DNA of 64,000 bases, from NCBI GenBank assembly GCA_913056455.1, contig CAJXMJ010000001.1:1302001-1366000 (forward strand), read 5' to 3'. Positions 30,242 to 48,416 of the stretch are shown here, in pieces. Each line of letters starts with the position of its first letter. Positions within the stretch are counted from its first letter, which is position 1. The notes under the pieces were generated by a model that was not told the origin of the DNA, did no database searches, and was given only the letters and a program-made list of their open reading frames with translations. The stretch is from an uncultured Fodinibius sp. GTDB taxonomy: Bacteria > Bacteroidota > Rhodothermia > Balneolales > Balneolaceae. Made by a program: the position numbers and the translations under genes.

Positions 30242-30248
30242 CAGGTGC

Positions 30249-31757: not shown

Positions 31758-32220
31758 TCAAAGAAACATGCTCTTCATTTTTGAAGGCCTCAATAATTTC
31801 TTCCGCCGTTGAACAGCTACGCAATCGCTCTCTAAATTCACTATTATTCATTAACCTTGATATACGACTCAGCATTTTAATATGCAAGTTATTGCTCGCT
31901 TGCGGACCAACCAACAGAAAAACCATATTCACGGGCTCTTCATCGATAGCTTCGTAGTCAACCGGTTCTTTTAAAATAGCAAATGCTGCATATGTTTGAT
32001 TAATCCCTGATGCTTTGCCGTGCGGAATCGCCAACCCTTTGCCAACCCCCGTAGACATTATCCGTTCGCGCTCAAACACAGCTTCTCTTATTTCCTCAAG
32101 TTCTCCATTAGATACCATATCCTCTAATGAAGCAATCATCCTCTCTAATATCTCAGCTTTATCTTTGGCTTTCAGATTTGGTAACACAGTTTCTTCATTC
32201 AATAAGCTGAAAATATTCAT
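31750..32220 (-). CDS. ptsN: PTS EIIA domain protein (PtsN-like, nitrogen-type)
   Basis: A 156-residue soluble EIIA of the fructose/nitrogen class. The phosphorylatable His is H67 in GKGLAIPHGKA, followed by VNMVFLLVGPQASNNLHIKMLSRISRLM. Standalone EIIA-Ntr proteins act in regulation rather than sugar uptake. It is the first gene of ptsN-dacB-sigma54 response regulator. A TAnnTTTG box lies 37 bases before its start. Confidence 0.88.
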   Translation of the reverse strand: MNIFSLLNEETVLPNLKAKDKAEILERMIASLEDMVSNGELEEIREAVFERERIMSTGVGKGLAIPHGKASGINQTYAAFAILKEPVDYEAIDEEPVNMVFLLVGPQASNNLHIKMLSRISRLMNNSEFRERLRSCSTAEEIIEAFKNEEHVSLNG

Positions 32221-32256
32221 GCGGAAAAATCTAAATTATGTATTTCATATGCAGTT

Positions 32257-32264
32257 CAAATATA
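32257..32264 (-). promoter_or_regulatory. TAnnTTTG-type -7 box candidate upstream of ptsN
   Basis: Minus-strand TATATTTG lies 37 bases before the ptsN start. A TTG at 32286-32288 (minus) is a possible -33 element at a spacing of 21. Confidence 0.42.
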
Positions 32265-32368
32265 CTCATCGTTTTTCATCTGTTACAACTTAATTACGCC
32301 ATCAATTTATGGCCCCGAATTCTATATTTTCGTTTAATTGTTGGAAGCAAATTTTGTAAACTTTGCTG

Positions 32369-33037
32369 ATGGATTTTTTAAAAGGAATTTCGGCAGTATT
32401 AGCCAAGGACTTACAAACAGAGCTTCGGTCAAGGTACGCCATTAATACCGTTCTGGCGTTCGTGGGAGCTGCCCTACTGCTCATTCTTTTTGCCCTCAAT
32501 GCTGAACAGCTGGCTCCTACTCCCAAAAGTGCCCTCGTTTGGATTGTCATTCTTTTTGCTGCACTATCGAGTCTATCGCGTTCCTTTGTGATGGAAACCG
32601 ACCGAAAAACCTTTGATCTGCTTCGAATCCATAGCAATGCCTCTGAAGTTTTCGTGGGCAAGCTGTGCTATAATTTTTTATTTACACTTACAGTAAACCT
32701 TGTCACGTTTTTACTCTATATTTTTCTTCTCGGGATGCCTATAGCTGATCTGCTCGCATTTATTTTAGTTCTTCTTTTCGGCACCGCGGGATTATCAGGA
32801 GTCTCTACCATGCTTGGAGCCATTGTCTCGCAAGCCGATCGAAAAGGAGCTATTTTTTCAGTTCTTAGCATACCGTTACTTTTTCCGCTGATTCTTATTC
32901 TCGTGCGTACGACCAAAGCAGCACTTATCGATGGATTTACCGATAATTATCTTAATGACTTTTGGGCTTTGGTGGGTTATGCGGGTGTAACCATCACGGC
33001 AGGAATTTTACTTTTTGATTACATTTTTGAAGAATAA
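32369..33037 (+). CDS. ccmB: Haem exporter protein CcmB
   Basis: About 222 residues with six predicted membrane helices. The N-terminal motif LAKDLQTELRSRYAINTVLAF and the later ETDRKTFDLLRIHSNASEVFVGKL are typical of CcmB, the membrane subunit of the CcmAB ABC transporter used in system I cytochrome c maturation. ATG 32369 is preferred; a TTG two codons earlier is possible. ccmA, ccmC and other maturation genes are not adjacent. It precedes holB by 6 bases, so it likely heads a ccmB-holB-dapF-plug transcription unit. Confidence 0.9.
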   Translation: MDFLKGISAVLAKDLQTELRSRYAINTVLAFVGAALLLILFALNAEQLAPTPKSALVWIVILFAALSSLSRSFVMETDRKTFDLLRIHSNASEVFVGKLCYNFLFTLTVNLVTFLLYIFLLGMPIADLLAFILVLLFGTAGLSGVSTMLGAIVSQADRKGAIFSVLSIPLLFPLILILVRTTKAALIDGFTDNYLNDFWALVGYAGVTITAGILLFDYIFEE

Positions 33038-33043
33038 TACATT

Positions 33044-34246
33044 ATGATCGACTACAAAGACTTCACATTTGATTTTGGTGATCGTCGCCTGGTAGGGCAA
33101 TCTTTTGCCCGCGAACAAATCACGCGTATTATCCAGTCGGGGCGTATTAGTCACTCTTATCTTTTTTCGGGGCCTCCCGGAATTGGCAAAACCGCTTTTG
33201 CTCTTGCTTTTGCAGAACTTATAAATGGAGTCGACCATCTAACTGATTTAGGTGATCAAGCATTTTCCAAAAAATCATCATGGTTTACACATCCCGACAT
33301 TCACGTTTTTTTACCGGTACCTACCAATGTATCAGTTGAAGAGTTACGCGAGCGATTAGAACTACTACGCGAAGATCCCTACGAAATTGTGGATTTTAGC
33401 CTCCGACCATCACTGACCAACGAGGAAAGCACCAAAAATAAGCGTGCTTTTTATCCCATCGATTATTTCAGGGAGGAAATTCGGCCTGCTGCCTATTATA
33501 AACCCAATGAAGGGCAAAAAACGGTTATCATCATGACCGGAATTGAAAGTATGAAAAAAGAGGCAGCAAACTCTTTTTTAAAACTGCTCGAAGAACCCGC
33601 AGAAGACCTCATTTTCTTGCTCACTACTGACAATACAGAAGCCCTGCTACCCACCATAATCTCTCGTTGCCAACACATCCAGCTATCACCTTTAAAGACA
33701 AAAGAGATTGAACAAGCTCTTATTGAACAAGATGGAGTGGACAAAAATGAAGCTTCATATCTGGCACGGGTTTCCGGCGGGAACTATGCAATGACCCGCT
33801 TTTTTGATGTTGACACTCTGAAAAGCACACGAGAAGCGATTATTGAATACTTGCGATACTCCTATTCCCAGAATGCCGTCAATATTACCCAAACAGCTCA
33901 AGACTGGCAGAGTCAGGAAAATCTTGAGGGGCTAATTGCTATCCTGAACGTTATGGAAGTTTTTCTGCGCGACTTACTTGTTTATCGGTCAACGCAGAAT
34001 AAGGCATTAATAACCAATGCTGATCAGCTCGATGTAATTAAAAAATTCTGCGAAACATTGGCCGATGCACGTCTTGAGGATATGATAGAACAAGTTAACG
34101 AATGCAAACCGATGGTTTATCGAAACGTACAGGCAAAACTTATTTTTACGTCGTTAGCTTTTCGATTTTCAAGCTTGATGCGTGGCAATGACCCTATCAT
34201 CACCAAACAAGACTCCTGGAAACATTTACCAGCTTTCTCTGAATAA
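33044..34246 (+). CDS. holB: DNA polymerase III subunit delta'
   Basis: A 400-residue AAA+ clamp-loader subunit. VGQSFAREQITRIIQSGRISHSYLF leads into Walker A GPPGIGKT (43-50). Then come MKKEAANSFLKLLEEP and LLPTIISRCQHIQLSPL, the SRC motif typical of clamp-loader proteins. It helps load the beta clamp on primed DNA. The stop and the dapF start overlap by one base (TAATG). The zinc-finger cysteines of E. coli delta' are not evident, which is common in this phylum. Confidence 0.92.
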   Translation: MIDYKDFTFDFGDRRLVGQSFAREQITRIIQSGRISHSYLFSGPPGIGKTAFALAFAELINGVDHLTDLGDQAFSKKSSWFTHPDIHVFLPVPTNVSVEELRERLELLREDPYEIVDFSLRPSLTNEESTKNKRAFYPIDYFREEIRPAAYYKPNEGQKTVIIMTGIESMKKEAANSFLKLLEEPAEDLIFLLTTDNTEALLPTIISRCQHIQLSPLKTKEIEQALIEQDGVDKNEASYLARVSGGNYAMTRFFDVDTLKSTREAIIEYLRYSYSQNAVNITQTAQDWQSQENLEGLIAILNVMEVFLRDLLVYRSTQNKALITNADQLDVIKKFCETLADARLEDMIEQVNECKPMVYRNVQAKLIFTSLAFRFSSLMRGNDPIITKQDSWKHLPAFSE

Positions 34247-35082
34247 TGGATACACCAAAACGTGACATAGCATTTACGAAAATGCAGGCGGCAGGTAATG
34301 ACTTTGTGTTAATTGATAACCGTTCAAAATCCTTTACTAAGGATGAGCTTATTTCATTAGCACCCAATATTTGTGACCGTAAATTCGGTGTCGGTTCTGA
34401 CGGTATTTTAGCCTTATTTCCACCCGAATACGATAAGGTTGACTATACCATGTTTTATCGCAATCCTGATGGCAGTAACGCCGGCATGTGCGGAAACGGT
34501 GCCCGATGTATAGCCCTATTTGCTTACTCGATAGGATTTGACAAACAGCACCGGTTTAATGTACACGACAATGTATATGAAGCAAACATCCAGGATTCCG
34601 ATTCTGTTATCATATCTTTTCCAATGGAGGCATTCGTTATTGAAAAAGATATCGACGGTGAAACCTTGTATGCTATTCATACTGGGACCGAACATACAGT
34701 AAAAGAAATTACAGAGGCTAAACTACAACATGAGGATGAGCTTGTCACTGAAGGAAAAAAAGTTCGATACCACGAGCACTTTGAGCCAAAAGGGACAAAC
34801 GTTAATTTTATCTGTGGTACCGATTCAACCAACCTTAAACTCCAAACATACGAGCGAGGAGTAGAAGATTTAACCTTAGCCTGTGGAACCGGGGCCATCG
34901 CTTCTGCTCTCGTCTGGCACCATCTACAAGATAATAATACCTCGGCCCGGAAATATTCGGTTGAAACAAAAGGCGGTACATTATCAGTACATTTTTCATT
35001 CGATCGCAAAACAAACACATATAGCAATATTAAACTCGAAGGCCCCGCTCATTTTGTATTCAAAGGCACTTTTTTACAGTAA
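34246..35082 (+). CDS. dapF: Diaminopimelate epimerase
   Basis: A 278-residue enzyme that converts LL- to meso-diaminopimelate for lysine and peptidoglycan synthesis. The two catalytic cysteines are C82 (GMCGNGARC) and C213 (LACGTGAIAS), which lie in the two mirror-image halves of the fold. FTKMQAAGNDFVLID is the conserved N terminus. It is coupled to holB at its start and overlaps the plug gene by about 29 bases at its end. Confidence 0.96.
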   Translation: MDTPKRDIAFTKMQAAGNDFVLIDNRSKSFTKDELISLAPNICDRKFGVGSDGILALFPPEYDKVDYTMFYRNPDGSNAGMCGNGARCIALFAYSIGFDKQHRFNVHDNVYEANIQDSDSVIISFPMEAFVIEKDIDGETLYAIHTGTEHTVKEITEAKLQHEDELVTEGKKVRYHEHFEPKGTNVNFICGTDSTNLKLQTYERGVEDLTLACGTGAIASALVWHHLQDNNTSARKYSVETKGGTLSVHFSFDRKTNTYSNIKLEGPAHFVFKGTFLQ

Positions 35083-36361
35083 ATTTGTTCTCATTCTGTT
35101 GGTATCTGCTGTTGTGGGATGTGCTACTGCTGGATCCTATGAAAAACAGCCGCCTTCACAATCAGAAAATCATTTAGAAGGAACCCTTGCGCTAAACAAG
35201 CAAAAAGCATCACCACATGATATACAAAGTATCCAACTTCATCCCGAGGGGCAGCCGGGACAAGCCCCTATCTTGGAACTAACCACTTCTCATAAATTAC
35301 TTCTTTCCTTTGATTATTTAGGGACACAAAATCAGCAATTTAGAGTAACGGTAGAACATTACGATAAAGAATGGAATAAAAGTGGCATTGGCCCGAATAC
35401 GTATCTCGACAGTTTTTCCGAAACTATCATTCAGTCCTCAAGAATCAGCTTTGGACAGCGTCCCTCTTATCATCATATAGAATTTTCCTTCCCCAATAAT
35501 GAACTACAGCCTGCAGTAAGTGGAAACTATCTCATCAAGGTCTATTCGACTGATGACAATAACCTGTTATTTTCAATGCCCTTTTTTATCACCGAAGATG
35601 AGGGACAAATAGAAACACGGGTAGAACGGCTTTTCGCACAGCGCAAAGATGGCCGCCCCCTCGATAAGCTTTTTAGCACCTACAGTTATCCTGATTTTGT
35701 AGAATTTCCCCAATTTGATTTATCCATGTCATTTGTACAAAACCAATTCTGGGGACAAACAAAACAGGTTGAATTTCTCGATACTATCACGCCGGGTCAA
35801 CTGCGAGGATATATTGAAAGCGACAATGCTTTTGTTGGAAATTACGAATTCAAGCACCTAAACCTTCAAAATTTTGATGCTGACGGTCAACAGATTCTAG
35901 AATATCAGCCCGGTGTTACACCGCCTAAAGTTATTTTGCGGCGGGATGTTCAAAACCTGGATACCAACCCTAACTGGTCAGAAGCAGCTATTAACATTGG
36001 CATCCCAAATGATAATCGTAATAGCAATTATGCACAGGTAGAGTTCAGACTGGAAACAGCAGATGGTATCTCGCCTTCATCAAAAATTTTTATTGTCGGG
36101 CACTTCAACAACTGGATGATTAATGAACTTAACCAAATGAGCTTTGACTCCGGCAAACGGATGTGGACTGGACAGGCATTTATAAAACAGGGAACGTACG
36201 CTTACAAATACGTAAATGTCCAAGACAACAAAGTAGATAATCTTTCCCTTGATCAGGGGTTTTTGTCCTCTCAACAGGAGTACTTGACCTTCATTTATTT
36301 TAAGGATCCCGATCAAAACTTTGACCGACTGTTAAAAGTAGATCGGCTTATAAAGCAATGA
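35054..36361 (+). CDS. Type IX secretion plug-type lipoprotein (DUF5103)
   Basis: With a TTG start at 35054 the protein has 435 residues. It opens with a lipoprotein signal (MYSKALFYSKFVLILLVSAVVGC, cysteine 23). The conserved N-terminal segment LLLSFDYLGTQNQQFRVTVEHYDKEW and the central EFPQFDLSMSFVQNQFWG region match DUF5103. In Flavobacterium that family includes the Plug, which closes the periplasmic side of the SprA channel. The C terminus (about 340-425) is a carbohydrate-binding-like beta domain with FIVGHFNNWM. In-frame codons upstream to 34883 lie inside dapF and are not credible as coding for this gene. Confidence 0.86.
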   Translation: MYSKALFYSKFVLILLVSAVVGCATAGSYEKQPPSQSENHLEGTLALNKQKASPHDIQSIQLHPEGQPGQAPILELTTSHKLLLSFDYLGTQNQQFRVTVEHYDKEWNKSGIGPNTYLDSFSETIIQSSRISFGQRPSYHHIEFSFPNNELQPAVSGNYLIKVYSTDDNNLLFSMPFFITEDEGQIETRVERLFAQRKDGRPLDKLFSTYSYPDFVEFPQFDLSMSFVQNQFWGQTKQVEFLDTITPGQLRGYIESDNAFVGNYEFKHLNLQNFDADGQQILEYQPGVTPPKVILRRDVQNLDTNPNWSEAAINIGIPNDNRNSNYAQVEFRLETADGISPSSKIFIVGHFNNWMINELNQMSFDSGKRMWTGQAFIKQGTYAYKYVNVQDNKVDNLSLDQGFLSSQQEYLTFIYFKDPDQNFDRLLKVDRLIKQ

Positions 36362-36404
36362 GTGCTTGACTCAAGAAAGATTTACTCGACTGACAAAAAT
36401 ACTA

Positions 36405-36432
36405 CCGGCCTGATGATGAATCATCAGGCCGG
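36405..36432. terminator. Strong hairpin between the plug gene and the barrel-protein gene
   Basis: A perfect 12-bp GC-rich stem (CCGGCCTGATGA with TCATCAGGCCGG) has a four-base loop. On the minus strand it is followed by TAGTATTTTTG, so it mainly ends the minus-strand gene, and it may stop both convergent transcripts. Confidence 0.8.
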
Positions 36433-36442
36433 ATAAGCATTC

Positions 36443-39400
36443 CTAAAAATCTACCCCAATCGTAATATAGTGTATGGGATCGCTTCCAAATCCATCACGG
36501 TAATAGGGCCAGCCTACATCGTAACGGAGCGGAAATCCAAAGAGGATAGTACGCAGCCCAAATCCGGCTCCCATCAAAATATCGCCGTCGTTGACTGGGA
36601 CATTGAACGTACCGTTACCGGTATTAATTTGACGCTGAGCCCTTTCACTAACTCGAAAATCAAGATCTGCTTCATTTAAAACCGCCCTCTGTCGCCCGGG
36701 CTGTGGGTTGTTGGGCAAAGTCTGCTGATAATACTCAAACACAACATCTTGTCCCCAAGCCATACCGGCATCAAAGAAAGCAACACCGTTTAAGTTATAA
36801 AGCGGCAATATGGGTATGGGCCCGGGTAAAATGGCGGCGAATAACGGGAATCGGAATTCCGCATTAGCCAAAGTAAATCGATCTCCATAGATAGCGTTAT
36901 ACGGATGCCCCCTAAGTGGGAGTGCAGGCAAGGTGAAGAACGTATCTCCCAACCGATCAGTTGGTATACTACGTCCCGAGTATTTGGCATTTATCCATCC
37001 CAGCATACCCCCCATAAAGAATGTCTGAGAATCTCTCCCGAATGAAGCCGCTCCCGATCCACGCAGAGCTATAGAGTATCCCGATCCCAAATTAAAGTAC
37101 TTCCGATAATCACCGAGTATAGATGCAAATTGTAGAGTTTCATTCGTAATAGGCGGACTACCGGTAACACTTAGTGAGTACCGTGAACCACCGACGGGAG
37201 CAGTGTATCCCGGCATAGTTTTATCACTGGTAAAAATAATTTGGGGATAGGCAAAAGCCGCCGTCTCATTTTGGCTGGTATCAGCATAAGCAATGCTATA
37301 ATCCTGTGCAATTCCAATCCCGGATAGCCCTACATCTATCCGGCGGAATTTATCGAAGGGGTATCGCATATTAATACCGCCACCGAATGACCGAAATCGG
37401 TACAGCTGACCGGAAAAGTCTTGGAAATTACTGGCATTATGAAAGAACGTAAATTGCCAATCAGTTCTGTTTTTCAAGTAAGCATATTGCAAAAAGTAGG
37501 TACTGTTGCGTAAATCCAAATTCAGATTCGTACCAAAAGAGATCCTGTGGTTCCCCAGAAGATCACTAAACTGAATCTGCGTTATACCGTATGTCCCGTA
37601 AGAGGTAGAAAAATTACCGCCGGCATAAATAATATCCGTACTGAATCGTAATCGATATTCTCGCGGGATATATCTGCCATCATCAGTTTGATTGCCTTCT
37701 AGGTTAAACTTCGCCTCATCCATATATTCTGCAACAAAGGCCGTGTCTTCTTCTACCGAAGAGTCAAATACATAATTTCGGAAATCAAAACTGTCTGTTT
37801 CTTCTTGTTGCTCTTCAGTCGTATCCTGCTCAGTTGTATCCGGTTGGATGGCAGTAGTATCTACATATGCCTCTTTTGGCTCAGGATCAATTTTCGACGC
37901 GACCGCTTCAGTTAAACTGGTAGAGTCTACCGGTTGTGTCTTCAACATTTCGCGTACATATTTGGTAGCCGGCACACGTTCACCCTTGGATTCATCTGCC
38001 CTTCTTTTAGCCCACTCATTAGGCTCTAGCGGCTGATCTTTAACTCGGCTCAATGGAGACTGAACCATAAAAATATCCAGATTACCATCATTAATAGAGT
38101 TAACGGCCAGTCGGCTGGCATCAGCACTTATCGACATCTGCATAACGCCCGTTTGCAGGTCCGTAACCGGTGAAGAGGTTCGATCCTGAAGATTCATTAA
38201 ATAAATATTCGGGATACCATTTTCATCGGAAATGTAGAAAAGCTTGCCATCTCTACTTGTTGCCGGCTGCTTTTCATTCCAGTTTGGGGTTTTTGTTAGC
38301 CGCTGTGCAGTCGAAGAACCTATTTTAACCGAATAGATATCAGAAGTATATAAATCATCATCCATCAATAAACGAGACGTATTCTGTACATTATTCAACC
38401 GGACTTGATTACCTCGGTGCGAAACAAAATAAATCGTTTCAGAATCGGAGGCCCAGGCAGGCTCGTAGTCCGAGAATACATCATTAGTCACATTATTAAA
38501 CTCCTGCGTCTGCAGGTTGTATACATAAATATCCTGATTAGGGCCAATATTACCGTCAAAGGCTATTTTATTACCATCAGGTGACCAGGAAACCGAACCG
38601 ATGGCATCTACTTTGGGAAACTGGATCATCCTTACTTTGCCTGTTTCATAATCCACAATAGCTAAATTATCGGATCCCTTAGACTTGCTGGATAACGCAA
38701 TTTTTCGTCCATCGGGCGACCATGTCAAGTTGGGATTGAGAATATTTAGCTCCTCAAAGTTTACATTATCCTCTCCCTTGATAAGGGTTTTTATTTTATC
38801 CCCGGTTATAGCACTGATTACCACTACATCAAAATAACCTCGTTTATTCGTAATCATCGCGATTTTATCGCCTTGAGGCGATACAGCCGGACTTGTATTG
38901 TAACTACCGGCTTTATCACGTTCGGTCAGCAGATCTGCGAATGAGGTTATATCCTCGCGGTTAGCCACTTCCGGCAGATACCGTTTTCGATAGTAATCCT
39001 GCCAACGCTTTGACAACTCCTCTAAACTCAACCCGAGCGTTCTATTCAGCGTCACTTCCAAATTTCTCTGGTTATACAGGGTCTGCATAATTTCGGTAAT
39101 CTTTGGACGGCCATACTCCTCAGCAATATAGTTCCAAACCGACTGTCCTCCACGATAGGCAAAATAACCGCCAAGACGGCGAATTGGGGGAAGATAGTTG
39201 TTGATTGTCGCATCACGTATCCACATATCGGTGTTGGTATCCCAACCGAGAGAGGTATATTCGGCCATTCCCTCGTTATACCACAACGGTATTTGAAGAG
39301 CATTTCCACTAAGACGGGATTGTACGTTCCCTCCGTAGAACATATCATTAATGACAGCATGCTCAAGCTCGTGATGCAAGGTACTCCTAAATTCAGAATA

Positions 39401-39811
39401 ATTCCCTGTAAATGGCATTGTTATCCGGTTTTTATACGCATCAGTAACTCCGCCAATCCCTTCAGCATCAACCGGTAATGGCACTACATTAGTCTGGGAA
39501 AAATCATTGTGGGAGTCGTATATAATCACCTGGATACGATCGGCAATTTCATGATCAAAGTCCTCACTCAACTGCTTATAAGCGGACTCCAGAGAATAGA
39601 CAGTAAAGTTAGCTAAATCATAGTTTTTAGTTTTATAATAGTATATATCGAAATGCTCCGACTGCACATATCGCCAATCGAAATTGTCATACTGTACCCT
39701 GTTTTTTCCAAACGAGAAGTATTGTGCCTGCGCCTCTTGTATCATCCCACCAGCAAAAGCAGTAAGGAAAAGGGCTACCAGAAATTGCCGAAGAAGTTGA
39801 GATAATTTCAT
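36443..39811 (-). CDS. Metalloprotease-like / TolB propeller / outer-membrane barrel fusion protein
   Basis: From ATG 39811 the protein has 1122 residues (numbering below is from an ATG four codons upstream). After a signal peptide (ending AQAQ) comes a peptidase-MA-like domain with HELEH (H151, E152, H155) and a downstream WYNEGMAEYTS glutamate: a zincin arrangement. Residues about 300-610 carry repeated WSPDGxKIAF blocks, a TolB-type beta-propeller. An acidic Thr/Glu/Gln-rich linker follows (about 670-710). The rest is an Omp85/surface-antigen-like barrel with ALPLRGHPYNAIYGD and a final phenylalanine (ITIGVDF), the usual barrel-assembly signal. It lies 19 bases after rnr. Proteolytic activity is inferred. 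Confidence 0.86.
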   Translation of the reverse strand: MKLSQLLRQFLVALFLTAFAGGMIQEAQAQYFSFGKNRVQYDNFDWRYVQSEHFDIYYYKTKNYDLANFTVYSLESAYKQLSEDFDHEIADRIQVIIYDSHNDFSQTNVVPLPVDAEGIGGVTDAYKNRITMPFTGNYSEFRSTLHHELEHAVINDMFYGGNVQSRLSGNALQIPLWYNEGMAEYTSLGWDTNTDMWIRDATINNYLPPIRRLGGYFAYRGGQSVWNYIAEEYGRPKITEIMQTLYNQRNLEVTLNRTLGLSLEELSKRWQDYYRKRYLPEVANREDITSFADLLTERDKAGSYNTSPAVSPQGDKIAMITNKRGYFDVVVISAITGDKIKTLIKGEDNVNFEELNILNPNLTWSPDGRKIALSSKSKGSDNLAIVDYETGKVRMIQFPKVDAIGSVSWSPDGNKIAFDGNIGPNQDIYVYNLQTQEFNNVTNDVFSDYEPAWASDSETIYFVSHRGNQVRLNNVQNTSRLLMDDDLYTSDIYSVKIGSSTAQRLTKTPNWNEKQPATSRDGKLFYISDENGIPNIYLMNLQDRTSSPVTDLQTGVMQMSISADASRLAVNSINDGNLDIFMVQSPLSRVKDQPLEPNEWAKRRADESKGERVPATKYVREMLKTQPVDSTSLTEAVASKIDPEPKEAYVDTTAIQPDTTEQDTTEEQQEETDSFDFRNYVFDSSVEEDTAFVAEYMDEAKFNLEGNQTDDGRYIPREYRLRFSTDIIYAGGNFSTSYGTYGITQIQFSDLLGNHRISFGTNLNLDLRNSTYFLQYAYLKNRTDWQFTFFHNASNFQDFSGQLYRFRSFGGGINMRYPFDKFRRIDVGLSGIGIAQDYSIAYADTSQNETAAFAYPQIIFTSDKTMPGYTAPVGGSRYSLSVTGSPPITNETLQFASILGDYRKYFNLGSGYSIALRGSGAASFGRDSQTFFMGGMLGWINAKYSGRSIPTDRLGDTFFTLPALPLRGHPYNAIYGDRFTLANAEFRFPLFAAILPGPIPILPLYNLNGVAFFDAGMAWGQDVVFEYYQQTLPNNPQPGRQRAVLNEADLDFRVSERAQRQINTGNGTFNVPVNDGDILMGAGFGLRTILFGFPLRYDVGWPYYRDGFGSDPIHYITIGVDF

Positions 39812-39830
39812 AAATGGATACACATTTTAA

Positions 39831-42002
39831 TTAGCTACCGTCATCTACCAGTTTTAAGTCTATTTGTCGAGCTTTTATATCTGTTCTAACAACTTTAACA
39901 CGAACTTCCTTCCCTAATTGATATTTCTTACCGTGATTTCTACCAATCAGGCAGTGTTGTTTTTCATCATATTCATAATAATCATCATCAAGATCACTAA
40001 CACGAACCATTCCTTCACAGTGGATATCTTTTAGATCGACAAAAATACCACCGTCCATGACGCCGCTAATAACACCATCAAAATCTTCTCCCAAGTGTTC
40101 ACTCAGGTATTCTACCTGCTTCAACTTAACAGAATCTCGCTCCGCTTCAATAGCAGCACGTTCCTGCTCACTACAATGCGATCCCAGTTGTTTAAGTTCA
40201 TTATGCGAATAACTGGGTTTACCAGCAAGGTAGCTTTTCAATAAGCGATGTACCAATACATCAGGATAACGCCTGATAGGACTGGTAAAGTGTGCATAGT
40301 TTTCAAAACCTAACCCAAAGTGACCAATATTATCGGGACTGTATTCCGCTTTTGACATTGCACGGAGCATTAAGTCATTGATGGTCAATTCCAGCGAAGT
40401 ATCCTCAATCTGTTCTAACAAAACATTTATCGCTTTCGAGCTTACCGTCGGGCTATCAATATGAAAGTTGATTCCTATTGGCTTAACATTTTCTTCAATA
40501 TTCTTAAGTTTTTCAAGGTCGGGTTGGTCGTGTATACGATATAAAAACGGATAAAGATCTTTCGACTTCTCCTTATTCGATTGTTTTCGCAGATCCTCGA
40601 TATACTTGGCAACCGTACGATTAGCCATTAACATACACTCCTCAATGAGCCGGTGAGCAAACAGACGTTCTTTCAGTTTTACATCAATAGGCTTGCCATT
40701 TTCATCTAGTACAAATTTTGGTTCGGGCGTTTCAAAATTAATACTACCCTCACGAAATCGTTTATCCAACAATACTTGCGCTAAGTCAGCAGCCATTCGT
40801 ATTTCATCCGCATATGCACTGGTCTTGCCGTCAATAATTTCCTGGGCCTGTTCGTAGGTCAAACGTTGGTTGGAATGTATGACCGTTTCCTCAATGGAAT
40901 AATCCACTCGTTTTCCATTGGGGGTAATCTCCATAAAACAGCTGAAAGCCAACTTATCTTCCCGGGGATTCAAACTGCAAACATCATTACTTAAAACCTC
41001 TGGCAGCATGGGAATTACGCGGTCTACCAAGTACACACTGGTAGCCCGATGTTCGGCCTCATCATCAAGCACGGTATTCCGCGGCATATAATGGGTTACA
41101 TCGGCAATGTGTACACCCAGATAGTAATTACCATTATCAAGCTTTTTTATGCTTAATCCGTCATCAAAATCCTTAGCCGTGTCGGGGTCAATCGTAAGTA
41201 CAACTTCATCGCGCATATCCCGGCGGCGTTCAATTTCTTTTTCAGTAATTTCTCGATTGATATCTTCGGCATATTCTTCAACTTCCTCCGGGAATCCGGC
41301 TTTAATTTGGTTCTCCGCTAATATCGAAAGTACGTTTGCATCATTCGTTCCCTCCTGCCCAAGTACTTCCACTATCTTGGCTTCAGGCAGTGATTTAGGG
41401 TGTACCCAGTCCACCAGTTCAAATACTACTTTTTCACCGGGTTGAGCATCACCAAGGTTATTGGGAAGCACAAAGAAATCAGTATGAGCCGACTTTTCAT
41501 CAGGCTCAATAATATAATTCTGTTTTCCTTGTTTTTTGAGTATCCCAACAAATATACTTCTTCCTCGTTCTACAATATCAACAACTTTTCCTTCTTGGCG
41601 ACTTTTTCTGCCTTTTTTACCCAAGAATTTTACTTTAACTGTATCATCTTGCAGGGCGGTCCCCAAGTGTTTTGAGGGTACTCGGATGTCTTCGTCAAAT
41701 CCTTCAGCAATCAAATAGCCTGTACCGCGGCGGCTGATATCCATTTTTCCAACTACGGTATTCCGATCTTGTTTTCCGCCGTCTTTCCCGTTGGGAGAAA
41801 GCTGTACTGCTCCGCCCTTTCGCTTTACTATTAAATTTCGGTCATATAAACTGTTAATAGCATCTTTAAGATGCTGGTTGTCTTTCTTACCATCTACTTT
41901 TAAAATATTCTGCAAAACGTCGAACGGCAGATTTGCCTCCGGATTATTCTGCAAAATATCGAGAATAATATCTTCAAATGTTTCTTTCTTACTTTTCTTC
42001 AT
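39831..42002 (-). CDS. rnr: Ribonuclease R
   Basis: A 723-residue RNase II-superfamily 3'-5' exoribonuclease. It has an N-terminal helix-turn-helix/RNase-R domain, two cold-shock domains (about 85-230), the RNB catalytic domain with the Asp cluster TIDPDTAKDFDDGLS and FTSPIRRYPDVLVHRLL, and a C-terminal S1 domain (about 640-720, GVISGVMDGGIFVDL). It degrades structured RNA and acts in rRNA and trans-translation quality control. It lies 76 bases after tamB and just before the barrel fusion gene. Confidence 0.95.
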   Translation of the reverse strand: MKKSKKETFEDIILDILQNNPEANLPFDVLQNILKVDGKKDNQHLKDAINSLYDRNLIVKRKGGAVQLSPNGKDGGKQDRNTVVGKMDISRRGTGYLIAEGFDEDIRVPSKHLGTALQDDTVKVKFLGKKGRKSRQEGKVVDIVERGRSIFVGILKKQGKQNYIIEPDEKSAHTDFFVLPNNLGDAQPGEKVVFELVDWVHPKSLPEAKIVEVLGQEGTNDANVLSILAENQIKAGFPEEVEEYAEDINREITEKEIERRRDMRDEVVLTIDPDTAKDFDDGLSIKKLDNGNYYLGVHIADVTHYMPRNTVLDDEAEHRATSVYLVDRVIPMLPEVLSNDVCSLNPREDKLAFSCFMEITPNGKRVDYSIEETVIHSNQRLTYEQAQEIIDGKTSAYADEIRMAADLAQVLLDKRFREGSINFETPEPKFVLDENGKPIDVKLKERLFAHRLIEECMLMANRTVAKYIEDLRKQSNKEKSKDLYPFLYRIHDQPDLEKLKNIEENVKPIGINFHIDSPTVSSKAINVLLEQIEDTSLELTINDLMLRAMSKAEYSPDNIGHFGLGFENYAHFTSPIRRYPDVLVHRLLKSYLAGKPSYSHNELKQLGSHCSEQERAAIEAERDSVKLKQVEYLSEHLGEDFDGVISGVMDGGIFVDLKDIHCEGMVRVSDLDDDYYEYDEKQHCLIGRNHGKKYQLGKEVRVKVVRTDIKARQIDLKLVDDGS

Positions 42003-42078
42003 TTAATTATTAAAATAAAACTTTTAAAATTTCTTACTTCTTGATCCAAGTTACTTCTATTTAAGTAACACAAATTCA

Positions 42079-45000
42079 CTATTCATTGTTTGCGGAATCT
42101 TTATTCATCCCAAAGATTCCTTTAATTCGATTTATTAATTCGATCCAAGTATTGAACTGTATCCGCGATTCAATCCCTAATCCATCTACATAAGGGGTTA
42201 CGTCACCGGCTTGTGAACTTGCCTGCACGTTACTCAAAGCTTGATCTTGCCGGTGAAATGCTGTCAACGATAGCCCCTTCCTGATACGATATGTCGCATT
42301 TAAATCTCCAATACGGTCCCCTGTCGTGCTTTGTTGCCCCCCTCCAGTTATTTGTCCTTCCCGACGGAAAATCAATCGATCGTTATATAATCGCAAAGCA
42401 ATATCTAAATCCACCTCATTATAAGCATTCAAGTTAAAGTCAATATCAAGGCGACTTACATCGCTATTAAGTAATGTATTTATTTGATTAGATAGTAGCG
42501 AACTCACCTGGTTAGACAAAAATGGATTCACATAAGTAGATCCACGTGTGAGATTCTGGCTTAGCGTTGCCGTACCACTGCCTATACCTTGTGTGGGAAT
42601 AAACTGCCCCGTGAAAAGTATACTGGTGGCCTGCAACAATTTTTGCTGCTCATCTCGGTTGATCTGGTTAAGTGTATATTGCAAAGTTGAATTTGAGGAA
42701 AGCTCCATCGTAGACGGGAGTCTAAAATAGTAATTATTTTCAACACTATTAAGCGTTCCGTTAATTTCTACTATAAGATCCACCGGAACCTGTTGACTTC
42801 CATTTTGATTTTGGTCGTTCAGTCCATCCTCGCTTAGTAATGTTGCGACATTGGGACGAGCATTATAAACCGCACTTATATCCAAACGCGCATTGTCAGG
42901 GGGTCCTTCCCACACGATGGTACCCCCAGACTCCAACTGAAGGCGCCGGCTTATAATCTCACCGGTAACAAATTGGTAATTCCCGCCATCAATATTGTAT
43001 TGCCCAAACATCTGTACGTCCTGATCCTGCATGGTAATACGAAGTTGCCCTGTCCCTTGTGCGGTAAGGACCTCTCCCGTAACAGGATCAAAAATAAGGT
43101 TCACACTTAAATTATTGGATGCATTGAAGCGCAGATCCAAATCAAAACGCTCGGTAAAGGTCATCTCTTCGAGGGCCTGTTCCAGTGCCTCTTCCGCCTG
43201 TTCAGATTCTTGAGTAGTACGTTCGACCACAGATTCTGACTTTTTATGTACCTCGTCAAAAGAATCCACAAAGCGAATAAATTTACCACTCTCCTGCAGT
43301 TCGGTCTCTTCAAGCAACGGAATCGAAACCTCAGAGTTGCTGGTAACCTCTACCGGGTTTTCGGTACGCAAATACATATCAGTATTAGACCCTGAAAGTC
43401 TTACAAGACCCGTACCCGATACGTTTCCATAAAATGGCACATCGGGATCCATATTACTATTAAGAAACTGTAATTGGTCCATATCCAATGATAAATCGAG
43501 ATATGTAATGGGGTCAAAATCATTGAGATCTACCGTCCCCCAAATCGTTCCCGTACCCCCTTTGGTATCCATTACATTTAGCGAATCAAGAACTACCCCC
43601 TCATCTTTATTAAATTGTACCGGACCGCTCAAAAAGTAGTTAGTATTTAAAAATTCAGGTCGTGCGAACACATTCTGCGTTTCAAATTGAGACTGAAAAT
43701 CATAGTCTTCTAAATTACCGGTAATTGAGCCTGTTCCTGAAGCCTGCCCCTCTACCTCCATGAAAACATTATCGGCTATTACCGCTAAAAACCACAAGTC
43801 AACCTGATCAAAATTTGCATCAAAATGATAAACCGTATCCTGTCGGACTTCCGGGTTAGGTGTTACAAAATATCCATCCAATCGAATATCCTGACCTATT
43901 CCATCGTTAGACGCAAGGTAATCCTCATATTTCGTACTATCGGTAATAATATCAATTTGGGTGTCAAACCGTTCCTTATCAGGTCTATATTCACTATTAA
44001 AATGTACGTCACCCACTGTACGATCATTCATTCGAAACCGATTCACGTTCAAATCCCCTTGTATTGTAGGTTGCTGAGTAAGAGATCTTGTGACTAAACT
44101 GCCATTTAATACACCAGCAAAGTCGACTTTTCCTTTTATTAGATCCGAAATCCTCTTCAGGTTTATGTCACGCAATGTATAGGTCAGAGAATCACTGCGG
44201 TTAGAACTTAACCTGCCCTGCAATCTGAAATATTCATTTCTATTCTGAAAGCTGAAGTCATCAAAATCGATGACTCCACTCCGAAAGTACTGCAATTTGG
44301 GAGTTCGTTCGTTAACCCAAGCGTAAAGGTTATTACCCACAAAAAATTCTTCGACCGATACGGCAATTGACGAATCAGAGATATTTGATTGAAGCGCCAT
44401 ATCGAATTGCGCATCGTCTGATATAGCTCCTATATGCTGTGTGAAATATACTGAATCTTGTTTTACAGCCAGATCAAAAACCGTTGAATCCAAATCAACC
44501 GACTCGGTCTCAATTTTGGAAATATCTGCTTCCCAGTCCACTGATGAAAACTCACTGAGCGTACGGTCACTTCTGAAGCTGGCGGTAAATTGTGTATTAA
44601 CTCCCTGAACATTAATGTTATTGTAAGCAAGAGTATCTGAAGTCATCTCCGCCGACAAAAGCAACCGCCTTCCATCGGTATTTATATTAAATCTAACATC
44701 TGTTTCTGCATAAAGAGTGGGCAGTTGAGGCAAATATTTTTTGAGTAGTCCCAAATCCTTTGTTTGAATACTTCCGTCTATTACTACATTCTTGTCTTGT
44801 GGGGAGCTATTTAATGAATCAGTAAGTACCGGCTGACTCAACATTATTTCGGACTTAAACCTGTTTTTAAGATATGAACTCCAAAATCCGGTTTGGGAGA
44901 TTACATCAGCCGGCGTAACCTCACCACTAACATTCAAATCAAGCAGTGAGCTGGTAAGTCGGAACTGCCGAGTTGAGCCGTCCGGTGAACTCAAATCCAT

Positions 45001-46761
45001 GTAGAGCTGGTGGGGCCGCACGGAATCACCATCAATAACTGAAGGAGCTATATCAAGGTTTGCTTTGCCTTGCATACGGTCCGGATCAAATCCTTGAATA
45101 TCCATACTATAATCAAAATTGAGTGCAGTCTCTGTAACCGTATTTTCGGCAAAAAAATTAGTCAGATTGAAATTGCCCGCATTCCCTTCTATGGCTAATG
45201 TTTGATTATCATCACTGAAGTTTACTGAAGAGGTCCCCTTCAGAAACTCATCGCTATTACGATATTCATACTTCTGGCTCCAAATTTTATTATTCAGATT
45301 TGAAGAGAGCACGAACCGTTCAAATTGATGGGACCCTATCCGACTATCTGTGAACGTGGCATTTAAATCAGTGACCGCTTTATCAATACTAAATCCTTTT
45401 CCTCCGACCTGAGCCTCAAAATTCAGAGCAGTTGTATCTACTCGCTCAGCAAAGAAAGGTGCGATATCCAAGTTCTCACCTGCGAAAGTGCCACTGTATC
45501 TAAAAGGTTCAACAAGCTGGGTTTCTCCCTCGAACTCAAGAGACCCGAGGGTACTCGACAGCGAAAAATCTCCCTTAATATGTTGCAAGCTCCCATTGGC
45601 CTGGCCAGAAATAGCCAAACTTTGGAGTTCCTTGTTATTGGGAATAGCCAGAGTATCCAGTAGCTGAGTAAGATCTTCATTTCGTAGGTTTACCCCTTCA
45701 AAACGCAACTGATACGAAAGGTTCTGCCGATCAATAATATTTTTGATAAGCCCATTTAAATTGACATAGCTCTCTCCAATACCCAGTTGTGCTCGATCTA
45801 TCCAAAGAGAATCAGCAGACCCCTCGGTCCTAATGTCAATACTCAGAGATTTTTCAAGATCCGGGGTATAGGCTGTAAAATCGGCGATATCCTGAAGATC
45901 AATGTCATTGGAGCGTATATCCAGATCATATTGAGCTGCTTTAAGCTGCTCAGTTACATTGGGCTCCAAGAGATTCACACCATCAACCTCACCATTAAAA
46001 ACGAACCGAGAACTGCCTAACGTTAAATAAAAGGAGTTGAACTCCAAAAAACGGTGATCATTATACAGCTGTCCTGATGCAGAAATATTCTCGACCTTTA
46101 AGTTATCAGAATCGGCAATAAATGACTCTATATCCAAATACCGTTGTAATTCACTCCAGTCTACAAAGAGCGAAGCATTAATATTATTCAGCGTAAACGA
46201 GGATGGAAGATTCCCAATCTGATGCTTGTCCGTCTCAGCCTTCAGATGAACAATCCCACTTTCGATATTCACATCCGGGGCAATAATTTCAATTCTACTC
46301 AACCAGGGATTGCTATCTGCCTGTTGGCGCTGTTCAGCTTCTTTTCTACGTTCAAGCAAAATAAGTCTCCCATTCTCACCAGATCGTAGACGAACTTCAG
46401 GCGATTGTAACGAAAAACCAACGATTGTCAGCTTATTTTGTAGCAATCCCCAAACATCAATTTCGCTATCAACCTGCTGCACCGATACCAATGTATCAGC
46501 TTCAGTATCATCGCTGCGCAGTAAAGCAACATCGTATAAACTCATCCGAAAAGGTAAAACCCCATCGATATCCCCAATATTCAGCTCTGCCTTATATGTC
46601 TGCTCTACCTGTCTCTCTATACGGTTAGCCAAATAATTTTTGGTTACATCAAGCTGCAAAACACCAATCACTATACCCGATAGAACAGCAGCTGCAAGTA
46701 ATAGTACAAAGACTATTCTCCAAAAGTATTTCCAGCTTTTATATAACCAGCGGTAAAACAC
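42079..46761 (-). CDS. tamB: TamB-family translocation and assembly module protein (DUF490)
   Basis: A 1560-residue AsmA-like protein with one N-terminal membrane anchor (about residues 14-34, IVFVLLLAAAVLSGIVIGVL). A very long periplasmic beta-rich stretch ends in the DUF490/TamB domain (about 1200-1540; GTGQLRITMQDQDVQMFGQY, YNARPNVATLLSED). Such proteins span the periplasm as a hydrophobic groove and help carry phospholipids or assemble outer-membrane proteins. It starts 13 bases after aroB. No TamA (barrel partner) is adjacent unless the barrel fusion protein two genes on plays a similar role. Confidence 0.9.
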   Translation of the reverse strand: MFYRWLYKSWKYFWRIVFVLLLAAAVLSGIVIGVLQLDVTKNYLANRIERQVEQTYKAELNIGDIDGVLPFRMSLYDVALLRSDDTEADTLVSVQQVDSEIDVWGLLQNKLTIVGFSLQSPEVRLRSGENGRLILLERRKEAEQRQQADSNPWLSRIEIIAPDVNIESGIVHLKAETDKHQIGNLPSSFTLNNINASLFVDWSELQRYLDIESFIADSDNLKVENISASGQLYNDHRFLEFNSFYLTLGSSRFVFNGEVDGVNLLEPNVTEQLKAAQYDLDIRSNDIDLQDIADFTAYTPDLEKSLSIDIRTEGSADSLWIDRAQLGIGESYVNLNGLIKNIIDRQNLSYQLRFEGVNLRNEDLTQLLDTLAIPNNKELQSLAISGQANGSLQHIKGDFSLSSTLGSLEFEGETQLVEPFRYSGTFAGENLDIAPFFAERVDTTALNFEAQVGGKGFSIDKAVTDLNATFTDSRIGSHQFERFVLSSNLNNKIWSQKYEYRNSDEFLKGTSSVNFSDDNQTLAIEGNAGNFNLTNFFAENTVTETALNFDYSMDIQGFDPDRMQGKANLDIAPSVIDGDSVRPHQLYMDLSSPDGSTRQFRLTSSLLDLNVSGEVTPADVISQTGFWSSYLKNRFKSEIMLSQPVLTDSLNSSPQDKNVVIDGSIQTKDLGLLKKYLPQLPTLYAETDVRFNINTDGRRLLLSAEMTSDTLAYNNINVQGVNTQFTASFRSDRTLSEFSSVDWEADISKIETESVDLDSTVFDLAVKQDSVYFTQHIGAISDDAQFDMALQSNISDSSIAVSVEEFFVGNNLYAWVNERTPKLQYFRSGVIDFDDFSFQNRNEYFRLQGRLSSNRSDSLTYTLRDINLKRISDLIKGKVDFAGVLNGSLVTRSLTQQPTIQGDLNVNRFRMNDRTVGDVHFNSEYRPDKERFDTQIDIITDSTKYEDYLASNDGIGQDIRLDGYFVTPNPEVRQDTVYHFDANFDQVDLWFLAVIADNVFMEVEGQASGTGSITGNLEDYDFQSQFETQNVFARPEFLNTNYFLSGPVQFNKDEGVVLDSLNVMDTKGGTGTIWGTVDLNDFDPITYLDLSLDMDQLQFLNSNMDPDVPFYGNVSGTGLVRLSGSNTDMYLRTENPVEVTSNSEVSIPLLEETELQESGKFIRFVDSFDEVHKKSESVVERTTQESEQAEEALEQALEEMTFTERFDLDLRFNASNNLSVNLIFDPVTGEVLTAQGTGQLRITMQDQDVQMFGQYNIDGGNYQFVTGEIISRRLQLESGGTIVWEGPPDNARLDISAVYNARPNVATLLSEDGLNDQNQNGSQQVPVDLIVEINGTLNSVENNYYFRLPSTMELSSNSTLQYTLNQINRDEQQKLLQATSILFTGQFIPTQGIGSGTATLSQNLTRGSTYVNPFLSNQVSSLLSNQINTLLNSDVSRLDIDFNLNAYNEVDLDIALRLYNDRLIFRREGQITGGGQQSTTGDRIGDLNATYRIRKGLSLTAFHRQDQALSNVQASSQAGDVTPYVDGLGIESRIQFNTWIELINRIKGIFGMNKDSANNE

Positions 46762-46774
46762 GTACGCTCAACAT

Positions 46775-47866
46775 TTAGGTATTAAATTTATCAAGGGTAT
46801 AGCTCCAACTTTTTTGAAGCAACGAATGATCTTCACAGCTATAAAGATACGGCGATCCCCAATCATTCAACAACACTAAACGAATAGTATTATCCTTTAC
46901 TTTTTTATCGGATTTCATTGCATCTAAAAGTTCCTCGGTATTTACCGATAACGGGGACATCTGTTTTTTATATAACGAAAGAAAAGGGGAAAAACGTACA
47001 TCGCTTACAGGGTGTCCTAACTGTCGCGAAAAATGACAAGCCGCAATCATGCCCACAAAAACTGCTTCTCCATGGGTAACTGCGCCGTAACCCGAAACCT
47101 TTTCAAGAGCATGACCAAAAGTGTGCCCAAAATTCAAATACGCTCGCTTACCCGCTTCAAGTGTATCTTCCTGCACAATATCAGCTTTGATGCGGGCACT
47201 TTCTTCAACAACATCTACCCAACGCTCCTTCGGCGTTAACGGCTGATGAATAAGTTCTTCTATCACTTCAAATAACTGAGGGTTCCGAATAGCAGCATAT
47301 TTTAATATTTCTGCCATGCCCGTAATCCATTCCTTCTGTTCGAGCGTATCCAGAAATGCAATATCAGAAAATACGGCATCGGGCTGATAAAAACTGCCAA
47401 TCAGGTTTTTGCCCGTAGTATGGTTAACACCTGTTTTACCACCGATAGAACTATCAACCATCGCCAGTAAGGTAGTTGGCATATGGATAAGTGGTACGCC
47501 ACGTAACACCGTGGCTGCTACGAACCCAGCAAGGTCACCGGTTACTCCACCTCCTATAGCTAAAATTGGCGTAGATCGCTCTATACCTATCTCTAATATC
47601 TTATTCGTAATATTGTTCCATTCCCTTACTGATTTTGAGGACTCCCCCTCCGGTATTTCAATAAGATGAACATGCTCAAAATCACTGACGAACTTTTCTA
47701 CCCTTTCCCCATGTAATCGGTTAACATTCTCATCAATCAGAACAAAAATACTATTTCGGTTGTAGTGAGTTTCGCAATATATCCGAAAGGAATGGGCCAG
47801 CTGCTGGCCAATATTAATTTGATACTCCTGATCCAGCGAAATGCCTACATCAATAATATTCGACAT
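46775..47866 (-). CDS. aroB: 3-dehydroquinate synthase
   Basis: A 363-residue NAD- and zinc-dependent enzyme that converts DAHP to 3-dehydroquinate, step two of the shikimate pathway. Signatures are LAIGGGVTGDLAGFVAATVLRGVPLIHMPT (shown in part: GGGVTGDLAGF), DSSIGGKTGVNH and the metal-binding NFGHTFGHALE. Its start overlaps the aroK end by 17 bases, indicating coupled translation. Confidence 0.96.
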   Translation of the reverse strand: MSNIIDVGISLDQEYQINIGQQLAHSFRIYCETHYNRNSIFVLIDENVNRLHGERVEKFVSDFEHVHLIEIPEGESSKSVREWNNITNKILEIGIERSTPILAIGGGVTGDLAGFVAATVLRGVPLIHMPTTLLAMVDSSIGGKTGVNHTTGKNLIGSFYQPDAVFSDIAFLDTLEQKEWITGMAEILKYAAIRNPQLFEVIEELIHQPLTPKERWVDVVEESARIKADIVQEDTLEAGKRAYLNFGHTFGHALEKVSGYGAVTHGEAVFVGMIAACHFSRQLGHPVSDVRFSPFLSLYKKQMSPLSVNTEELLDAMKSDKKVKDNTIRLVLLNDWGSPYLYSCEDHSLLQKSWSYTLDKFNT

Positions 47867-48416
47867 GGTTTCTGATCTTTTTCAATAATTGTTCTACTAT
47901 ATCCTCGACACTTGCCTTCCCATCATTTTCTATTTGAATCACTGCTTGTTCGTATAATGGAAGCCGCCTTTCATATAAAGCCGTCAGTTCTCTTTTTAGC
48001 TGCTTTTTATTTTTGGGATTTCCCTGTTCATCTAAAAGTAGCGGTCGATTTTCATCTTGTGATATGCGGTCTAAGATAACAGAAATCGGCGTTTCTATAA
48101 AAATAAGCAGTCCGTTTAATTTCACGTGGTCTACCATATGCTGATTTTGCAAACTTCCCCCGCCAAGTGATACCACGCCGTCAAATGTTCTAATCACCTC
48201 CAACACTGCTCGTCGCTCAGCAACGCGAAACGCTGGCTCACCGGATTCCTCAAAAATTTCTGGGATCGACTGGCCGGTTTGTTCTTCAATTTTATCATCA
48301 AGATCTAAAAACGATACTTCCAACCTTTTGGCTAATCCCCTGCCAATTACCGATTTTCCGGCACCCATAAATCCACATAAAAAAATACGTTCAGGTAAAT
48401 TCGAAATCATGCTCAC
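47850..48416 (-). CDS. aroK: Shikimate kinase
   Basis: This 188-residue kinase phosphorylates shikimate. Walker A is GFMGAGKS (15-22), followed by SFLDLDDKIEEQTGQSIPEIFEESGEPAFR and LGGGSLQNQHMVDHV, the usual shikimate-binding and glycine-rich regions. It overlaps rqcH by four bases (ATGA) and aroB by 17 bases. A second ATG two codons on is also possible. Confidence 0.95.
   Translation of the reverse strand: MSMISNLPERIFLCGFMGAGKSVIGRGLAKRLEVSFLDLDDKIEEQTGQSIPEIFEESGEPAFRVAERRAVLEVIRTFDGVVSLGGGSLQNQHMVDHVKLNGLLIFIETPISVILDRISQDENRPLLLDEQGNPKNKKQLKRELTALYERRLPLYEQAVIQIENDGKASVEDIVEQLLKKIRNHVEYY

Follow-up and report, generated by a model that had tools for sequence, protein, structure and literature searches.

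The window analyzed here, a stretch of 64,000 nucleotides from an uncultured Fodinibius sp., sits in contig C1 of a 3.28-Mb genome and harbors the gene for an exported protein of 1122 amino acids, named MAT. A single open frame with an ATG start on the minus strand (36443-39811) encodes MAT, and the nearest named relatives of the gene belong to Aliifodinibius/Fodinibius (91% identity; Balneolota). A gluzincin-like domain, a TolB-type propeller, a disordered acidic linker and an Omp85 barrel follow one another in the chain, and the observation of a zincin, a propeller and an Omp85 barrel in one protein is confirmed. Tentatively, with a probability of roughly 45%, MAT is taken to be an outer-membrane-anchored, periplasm-facing protease or scaffold in outer-membrane protein assembly or quality control. 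The parts of the gene product are given below with the source of each assignment; row counts refer to an alignment of 143 family members.

36443..39811, minus strand: MAT, three-domain Omp85 protein, 1122 residues (open reading frame, Pfam, NCBIfam, AlphaFold2 model)
39725..39811, minus strand: signal peptide, residues 1-29, signal peptidase I (SPI)-like, no lipobox (read from the sequence)
38942..39712, minus strand: gluzincin-like domain, residues 34-290 (Pfam, separate model, VIA-align)
39359..39373, minus strand: HELEH, residues 147-151, with presumed zinc ligands H147 and H151 and presumed general base E148 (sequence, alignment)
39260..39274, minus strand: EGMAE, residues 180-184, with presumed third ligand E180 and conserved E184 (alignment, profile match)
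39155..39157, minus strand: Y219, candidate catalytic Tyr (Tyr in 114/114 site-intact rows, 0/29 site-lost rows)
38039..38914, minus strand: TolB-type propeller, residues about 300-591 (PD40, TolB-like match, VIA-align)
37667..37999, minus strand: acidic, predicted disordered linker, residues 605-715 (composition, model confidence)
36446..37645, minus strand: Omp85-type barrel, residues 723-1122, ending in Phe (NCBIfam BamA, Pfam Omp85, VIA-align)
36908..36916, minus strand: LRG, residues 966-968, Omp85 loop-6-like motif (R in 116/143 rows, G in 111/143)

The HELEH protease-like domain, propeller, acidic linker and Phe-terminated barrel described in the initial annotation were recovered by Pfam and NCBIfam matches, by the models and in the sequence, from which it was read that the predicted signal peptide ends in EAQA followed by Q and that the last residue is Phe. 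The mutation target named there, E152, needed renumbering: residue 152 counted from the ATG is Ala, and E152 holds from an alternative GTG start at 39823, four codons upstream, being E148 in the ATG numbering that fits the coordinates. Across the 44 members of alignment A1 (L064 and L089, with split frames, and L083, at a contig end, were left out), Pfam models matched patchily at E 0.001, with PD40 in 31, Peptidase_MA_2 in 18 and Omp85 in 15. A sequence search of the PDB, which could have missed one, returned no match spanning the whole MAT architecture.

Pfam Peptidase_MA_2 matched residues 79-273 of MAT with 42.9 bits against a cut-off of 32.4. The zinc domain modelled alone reached a predicted local distance difference test score (pLDDT) of 86.0 and a predicted template modelling score (pTM) of 0.85. 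The best structural match to this model was M9 collagenase 8jt1_A (VIA Z 18.0, root-mean-square deviation (rmsd) 3.3, 225 residues), followed by M30 lugdulysin (Z 16.0, rmsd 5.2) and M1 aminopeptidases (Z up to 14.7), with 10-18% identity to the gluzincin fold matches in the alignment rows shown. A weak collagenase profile match (E 0.053) aligned HExxH with HEYVH and EGxAEY, which lies within NEGMAEY at residues 179-185, with EGVAEY. HExxH and a later Glu on a zincin fold, as expected of gluzincins (clan MA), are found in MAT.

The site-intact class was set by H147, E148, H151 and E180 alone, with E184 and Y219 not used. These four residues occur together in 114 of the 143 aligned members, which are related and not independent rows, and E184 and Y219 are also present in 114/114 of these; two rows, L216 with a wrongly chosen frame and L225 with a truncation at a contig end, were left out of the counts. 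A glycine pair at 120-121, 26-27 residues before HExxH, presumably recalls the collagenase double-glycine and is kept in the intact rows (G120 112/114, G121 114/114). The remaining 29 rows lack H147, E148, H151 and Y219 together while keeping the propeller and the barrel; Glu is found at 180 in 4/29 and at 184 in 1/29, G120 in 21/29 and G121 in 23/29, and W177, G181 and G222 are kept in 29/29. Such linked presence and absence of site residues is the pattern that an enzyme site would show. The strictly conserved gluzincin site favors real proteolysis in most members, and MAT itself would be expected to bind zinc and to cleave proteins.

In trees computed on the propeller and barrel columns alone, intact and lost rows were separated by one branch with a Shimodaira-Hasegawa-like approximate likelihood ratio test support of 100, so the site loss looks like one event in one clade. 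These were 'quick' builds without bootstrap and with warnings on long branches; L072, L073 and L080 were left out of alignment A2, and half of the Balneolales rows were thinned for the second tree. The trees carry no inferred root; loss, and not gain, is the favored direction since every other sampled lineage has the site. By deposited names, the clade includes rumen Bacteroidales, some Saprospiraceae and a metagenome-assembled genome (MAG) of Chlorobiota. The natural pseudoproteases are encoded at loci L056-L058, L061, L066, L067, L072, L075, L077-L079, L081, L082, L084-L088, L194-L203 and L228. Neighbors in the site-lost clade, such as a small outer-membrane barrel just upstream, are common to close relatives and carry little weight. 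Because one clade without the protease site keeps the rest of the chain, binding or scaffolding by the propeller, zincin fold and barrel must, as far as the sequences tell, be useful there without cutting.

The downstream domains were assigned in the same manner. Pfam PD40 matched MAT with 66.5 bits (cut-off 20.9), and residues 314-591 superposed on TolB 3iax_A (VIA Z 27.9, rmsd 2.3, 244 aligned). The linker contains 29 D+E and 10 K+R among its 111 residues, and pLDDT is below 50 across 610-705 in the whole-chain AlphaFold2 model, which was built on 44 family members. No POTRA domain was detected when MAT was scanned at E 1, nor was one among the 11 families matched in 44 rows at 0.001. In the barrel, the NCBIfam BamA model matched residues 725-1088 at E 7.6e-12, far below its own cut-off, Pfam Omp85 (PF01103) scored 41 bits against a cut-off of 24 in the own-genome scan, and residues 724-1122 aligned with Deinococcus BamA 8xnb_A (VIA Z 23.5, rmsd 4.0, 308 aligned). 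We take LRG at 966-968 to be the Omp85 loop-6 RG motif. The last residue among the 143 rows is F in 120, W in 22 and Y in 1. Hence, a C-terminal Omp85-type barrel, a loop-6 RG and an aromatic last residue, as expected of the Omp85 superfamily, are all present in MAT.

These data also bear on the possibility that MAT works mainly as an Omp85 insertase or translocase dedicated to special clients, in which the propeller and zincin fold are docking platforms replacing POTRA domains, proteolysis is secondary, and the site-lost clade represents the stripped-down device. The site-lost rows with their retained propeller, barrel, W177, G181 and G222 agree with it, as do barrel residues G976, E985, R987 and D1014, present in 143/143 rows, and the BamA-BamB-like platform proposed by Heinz and Lithgow in passages of PMC4104836. 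However, six site residues in 114/114 intact rows across many lineages are hard to square with incidental cutting, and the loop-6 R and G are kept only in the 116 and 111 rows listed above, where alignment noise is possible. This explanation is on balance unlikely.

With regard to placement, the zincin folds closest to that of MAT are those of collagenases and M30 lugdulysin, which are secreted enzymes, and the roughly 110-residue disordered linker could thread the barrel. Both would suit a protease that is displayed on the surface or released after its N-terminal domains have been exported by the attached barrel, as in the old type Vd idea. The N-termini of Omp85 proteins face the periplasm. 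A folded propeller and zincin would, moreover, be poor cargo for an Omp85 barrel, and PlpD, the prototype of the idea, was shown to keep its extra enzyme domain in the periplasm (passages of PMC11116518). Surface display is judged improbable, and of the 'periplasmic or surface' location suggested in the initial annotation the periplasmic part is likelier by this analogy. The topology proposed for MAT would place the zincin and the propeller in the periplasm.

The MAT family is widespread. A homologue was found in 37/38 genomes of the relatives set, which counts the own genome and whose one miss is 78% complete, and in 146/146 genomes of the class set, an occurrence that is more than chance; presence in all class genomes fits a housekeeping role. 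The order name, Balneolales, and the class were inferred from organism names of close matches. In the phylum set, 79/118 genomes carry the family at E 1e-60. Loci further out, by labels as deposited and mostly from MAGs, come from Gemmatimonadota, Neomarinimicrobiota, KSB1, Krumholzibacteriia, Zixiibacteriota, Acidobacteria and a Spirochaetaceae MAG.

The surroundings of MAT in the window comprise the following features.

39831..42002, minus strand: rnr (RNase R), 19 bp upstream of the MAT ATG (Pfam)
42079..46761, minus strand: TamB-like protein, 1560 amino acids (NCBIfam, TamB search of the genome)
46775..48416, minus strand: aroB and aroK, upstream in the same gene run (Pfam)
36405..36432, minus strand: terminator-like 12-pair hairpin with a T tail just after the MAT stop (terminator scan)
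34883-36361, plus strand: type IX secretion plug protein, convergent with MAT (NF052315, 205 bits)
13318-20538, minus strand: SprA, 2406 amino acids, type IX secretion translocon (SprA_N, 341.8 bits)

MAT is the last gene (X) of the run aroK-aroB-tamB-rnr-X, and its position after tamB and rnr was correctly described in the initial annotation. The tamB/rnr and rnr/MAT gaps measure 76 and 19 bp and contain no terminator-like site, and the hairpin at 36405..36432 is likely the operon end. Terminator-like sites in the operon region numbered 15 against 10.0 expected; promoter-like sites were not above chance there (27 observed, 32.4 expected). Among 35 loci of the order, 33 keep the gene series tamB-rnr-X intact, and the remaining two reach a contig edge inside rnr; a 36th relative, with the gene split over two small contigs, is not counted. 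The plug gene adjoins MAT in 24/35 relatives, and the block is kept where the plug gene differs. The listed start of the plug gene overlaps dapF and is probably too early.

Beyond the order and at paralogue loci, tamB and rnr were found beside the MAT homologue in 0/43 GTDB loci and 0/20 sister-order and paralogue loci by a tamB profile built from the window's order only, with which a distant TamB could be missed, rnr not easily. They are also absent at both same-genus paralogue loci, L141 and L142. With a simple gene caller, the family gene came out at 59 of these 63 loci, 40 of which have at least 5 kb on both sides; in the remaining four, longer antisense frames had displaced it. TamB is present somewhere in 27/29 distant genomes searched. 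Conservation of the tamB neighborhood, proposed as a check in the initial annotation, holds within the order and fails beyond it. Sister-order orthologue loci carry trigger factor in 7/14 and ClpP in 6/14 (clusters, with one member of each identified). The trigger-factor loci are L147, L149, L150, L152, L154, L155 and L158, and clpP is also present in six of these seven.

It had been suggested that MAT could be a TamA substitute; it would then be the outer-membrane partner, in a translocation and assembly module (TAM), of the TamB whose gene lies two genes upstream. The constancy of the tamB-rnr-X block in the order and its terminator-free gaps speak for it. However, the genome contains two TamB proteins, and the second (a 1494-aa frame), elsewhere in the genome, directly adjoins a 660-aa POTRA-bearing Omp85 with stop-to-stop frames overlapping by 16 bp; this arrangement lies at L143 7155-13600, minus strand, contig C2. 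The best NCBIfam models for this Omp85 are BamA, TamL and TamA, all below their cut-offs. An 815-aa TamL-like Omp85 matched lipo_TamL over residues 58-815 with 335 bits (E 8e-100; cut-off 400), and BamA itself is a protein of 860 aa that scored above the NCBIfam cut-off. A lone tamB needs no Omp85 neighbor: passages of PMC12045153 give the essential TamB and TamL of Flavobacterium johnsoniae far-apart locus tags and state that TamB2-TamL2 may form an operon. Because TamL-like and TamA/TamL2-like Omp85s with POTRAs are encoded in the same genome and F. johnsoniae TamB and TamL differ widely in locus tag, the window's TamB has a plausible POTRA-bearing partner without MAT. MAT also differs from TamA/TamL in the absence of a detectable POTRA before the barrel, where the linker is predicted to be disordered, and in a tamB linkage confined to the order, with 0/63 outside or paralogue loci despite the frequency of TamB in distant genomes. 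Given the TAM gene inventory and this limited synteny, the suggestion was rejected as very improbable.

A second association was observed in a shorter sister subfamily, whose proteins end in FFFGWDF or a similar sequence and make up 13 rows of the tree, in a clade with support 100. A profile from four other loci detected a BamB-like PQQ_2 propeller gene at 14 of 20 newly fetched loci of this subfamily, 13 of the matches being the next gene on the same strand, and at 0/99 other loci, among which L143 and L144 are without a family member. Two more of the 20 matched Pfam PQQ_2, one above the cut-off (31.4 bits) and one below (24.3 bits). In 10/20 loci there is an overlap of 1-13 nt between the BamB-like gene and the stop codon, and several, not all, of the genes carry a lipobox-like motif. 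Ten of the 20 proteins are on the second tree, and all 20 score best against the tree members of that subfamily. The short-subfamily loci are L234-L253, L054, L064, L065 and L076; in three loci that were scanned, the next genes along encode PEGA domains. The BamB-like lead bears on the family and only indirectly on MAT.

Taken together, tamB, the BamB-like gene and trigger factor/ClpP in three branches favor making or policing outer-membrane proteins. The reading of MAT as an outer-membrane-anchored periplasmic protease or scaffold is based on these neighbors, the conserved site, the site-lost clade, the orientation of Omp85 N-termini and the PlpD precedent. Clients bound for the outer membrane (or for surface export) that are unfolded or have stalled would be captured beside the barrel by the propeller and a partner, and the zinc domain would cut clients that fail. 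MAT would then be a membrane-anchored assembly-site protease, with a job like that of BepA beside BAM and a build like that of PlpD.

Several observations weigh against this reading. In the phylum set 39/118 genomes, all at least 90% complete, have no match at E 1e-60, so the family is dispensable in some lineages. Outside the order the neighbors vary widely, and the operon mates aroK, aroB and rnr are non-envelope genes. The BamB-like neighbor was not seen at 4/20 short-subfamily loci, and no short-subfamily copy was found in the window's genome, the coupling belonging to a paralogous subfamily. Four M48 peptidase matches are already present in the genome. Confidence in the whole-chain model is moderate, at pLDDT 74.3 and pTM 0.72 with several segments of the barrel below 50. 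The model has about 20 strands of at least 6 residues between 723 and 1118, and the barrel assignment draws on fold and family matches, not on counted closed strands. An envelope-biogenesis or quality-control role, as first proposed from the sequence, remains the best guess, since envelope and quality-control neighbors recur in different branches.

A broader proposal is that the family forms a separate class of outer-membrane assembly or quality-control device, in which a built-in propeller and gluzincin replace POTRA domains, one subfamily has a translationally coupled BamB-like partner and one clade a dead-protease scaffold; this is doubtful at present. If true, much of the phylum would possess a second machine that either assists BAM or works independently of it. 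If the reading of MAT given above is right, outer-membrane protein assembly in a large bacterial group would include a barrel with its own protease and propeller. Assembly and disposal would be testable in one protein (E148A), with the natural protease-dead branch as matching control. The widespread, little-studied family could show what such a barrel does with a protease of its own and how it manages when the protease is lost.

Other assignments were considered as well. With the plug gene convergent with MAT and SprA in the window, MAT could be cargo of the type IX secretion system (T9SS); this was rejected, as MAT ends in the barrel Phe and Pfam and NCBIfam scans showed no T9SS sorting domain. 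A defence system was rejected for want of a PADLOC match. A mobile element was likewise rejected, as none of the 30 records of the plasmid search covered 80% of the query, the best being a Salinibacter plasmid gene (31.6% over 53%). No tandem repeats were found in 30000-50000.

Comparison with known proteins showed partial likeness to several systems. The MAT zinc domain shares its fold, HExxH and later Glu with M9 collagenases, M30 lugdulysin and M1 aminopeptidases and differs in low identity and in being carried on an outer-membrane barrel. The propeller shares the TolB fold, whereas the N-terminal domain of TolB is missing from MAT, which has a zincin ahead of the propeller instead. BepA, a metalloprotease at the outer-membrane protein assembly site beside BAM in passages of the review PMC13067283, is alike by analogy in the proposed job only, as it belongs to family M48 and is not barrel-anchored. 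PlpD (patatin-Omp85) similarly joins an Omp85 barrel to a periplasmic enzyme domain, the periplasmic side being probable in MAT; unlike MAT with its zincin, PlpD has a patatin-like lipase domain, keeps POTRA and has no propeller, and Pfam and NCBIfam scans gave no patatin match in MAT. The window's genome also encodes a 755-aa patatin-like Omp85 (contig C3, L124 8087-10351, minus strand), which makes two enzyme-carrying Omp85 proteins.

The closest system is the WD40-Omp85 class (propeller and barrel), named in 2014 by Heinz and Lithgow, who proposed a BamA-BamB-like platform or fusion for it (passages of PMC4104836). A full-text search of the open-licence literature for the class name finds only this paper, and no experiment on the class appeared among the open-licence papers listed. 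By architecture, not by identity to published members, MAT belongs to this class, with a TolB-like propeller N-terminal to an Omp85 barrel and no POTRA. It differs in the conserved-site gluzincin before the propeller; the passages of PMC4104836 on the class mention no zincin, and the paper's 'Metallo' Omp85 class is based on PF00149. Priority on a zincin in the class cannot be claimed from these passages. What is added to the 2014 class is the invariant gluzincin site (114/143), the site-lost clade (29/143) and the short subfamily with its BamB-like gene, and the proposed role, if true, would provide a function for it.

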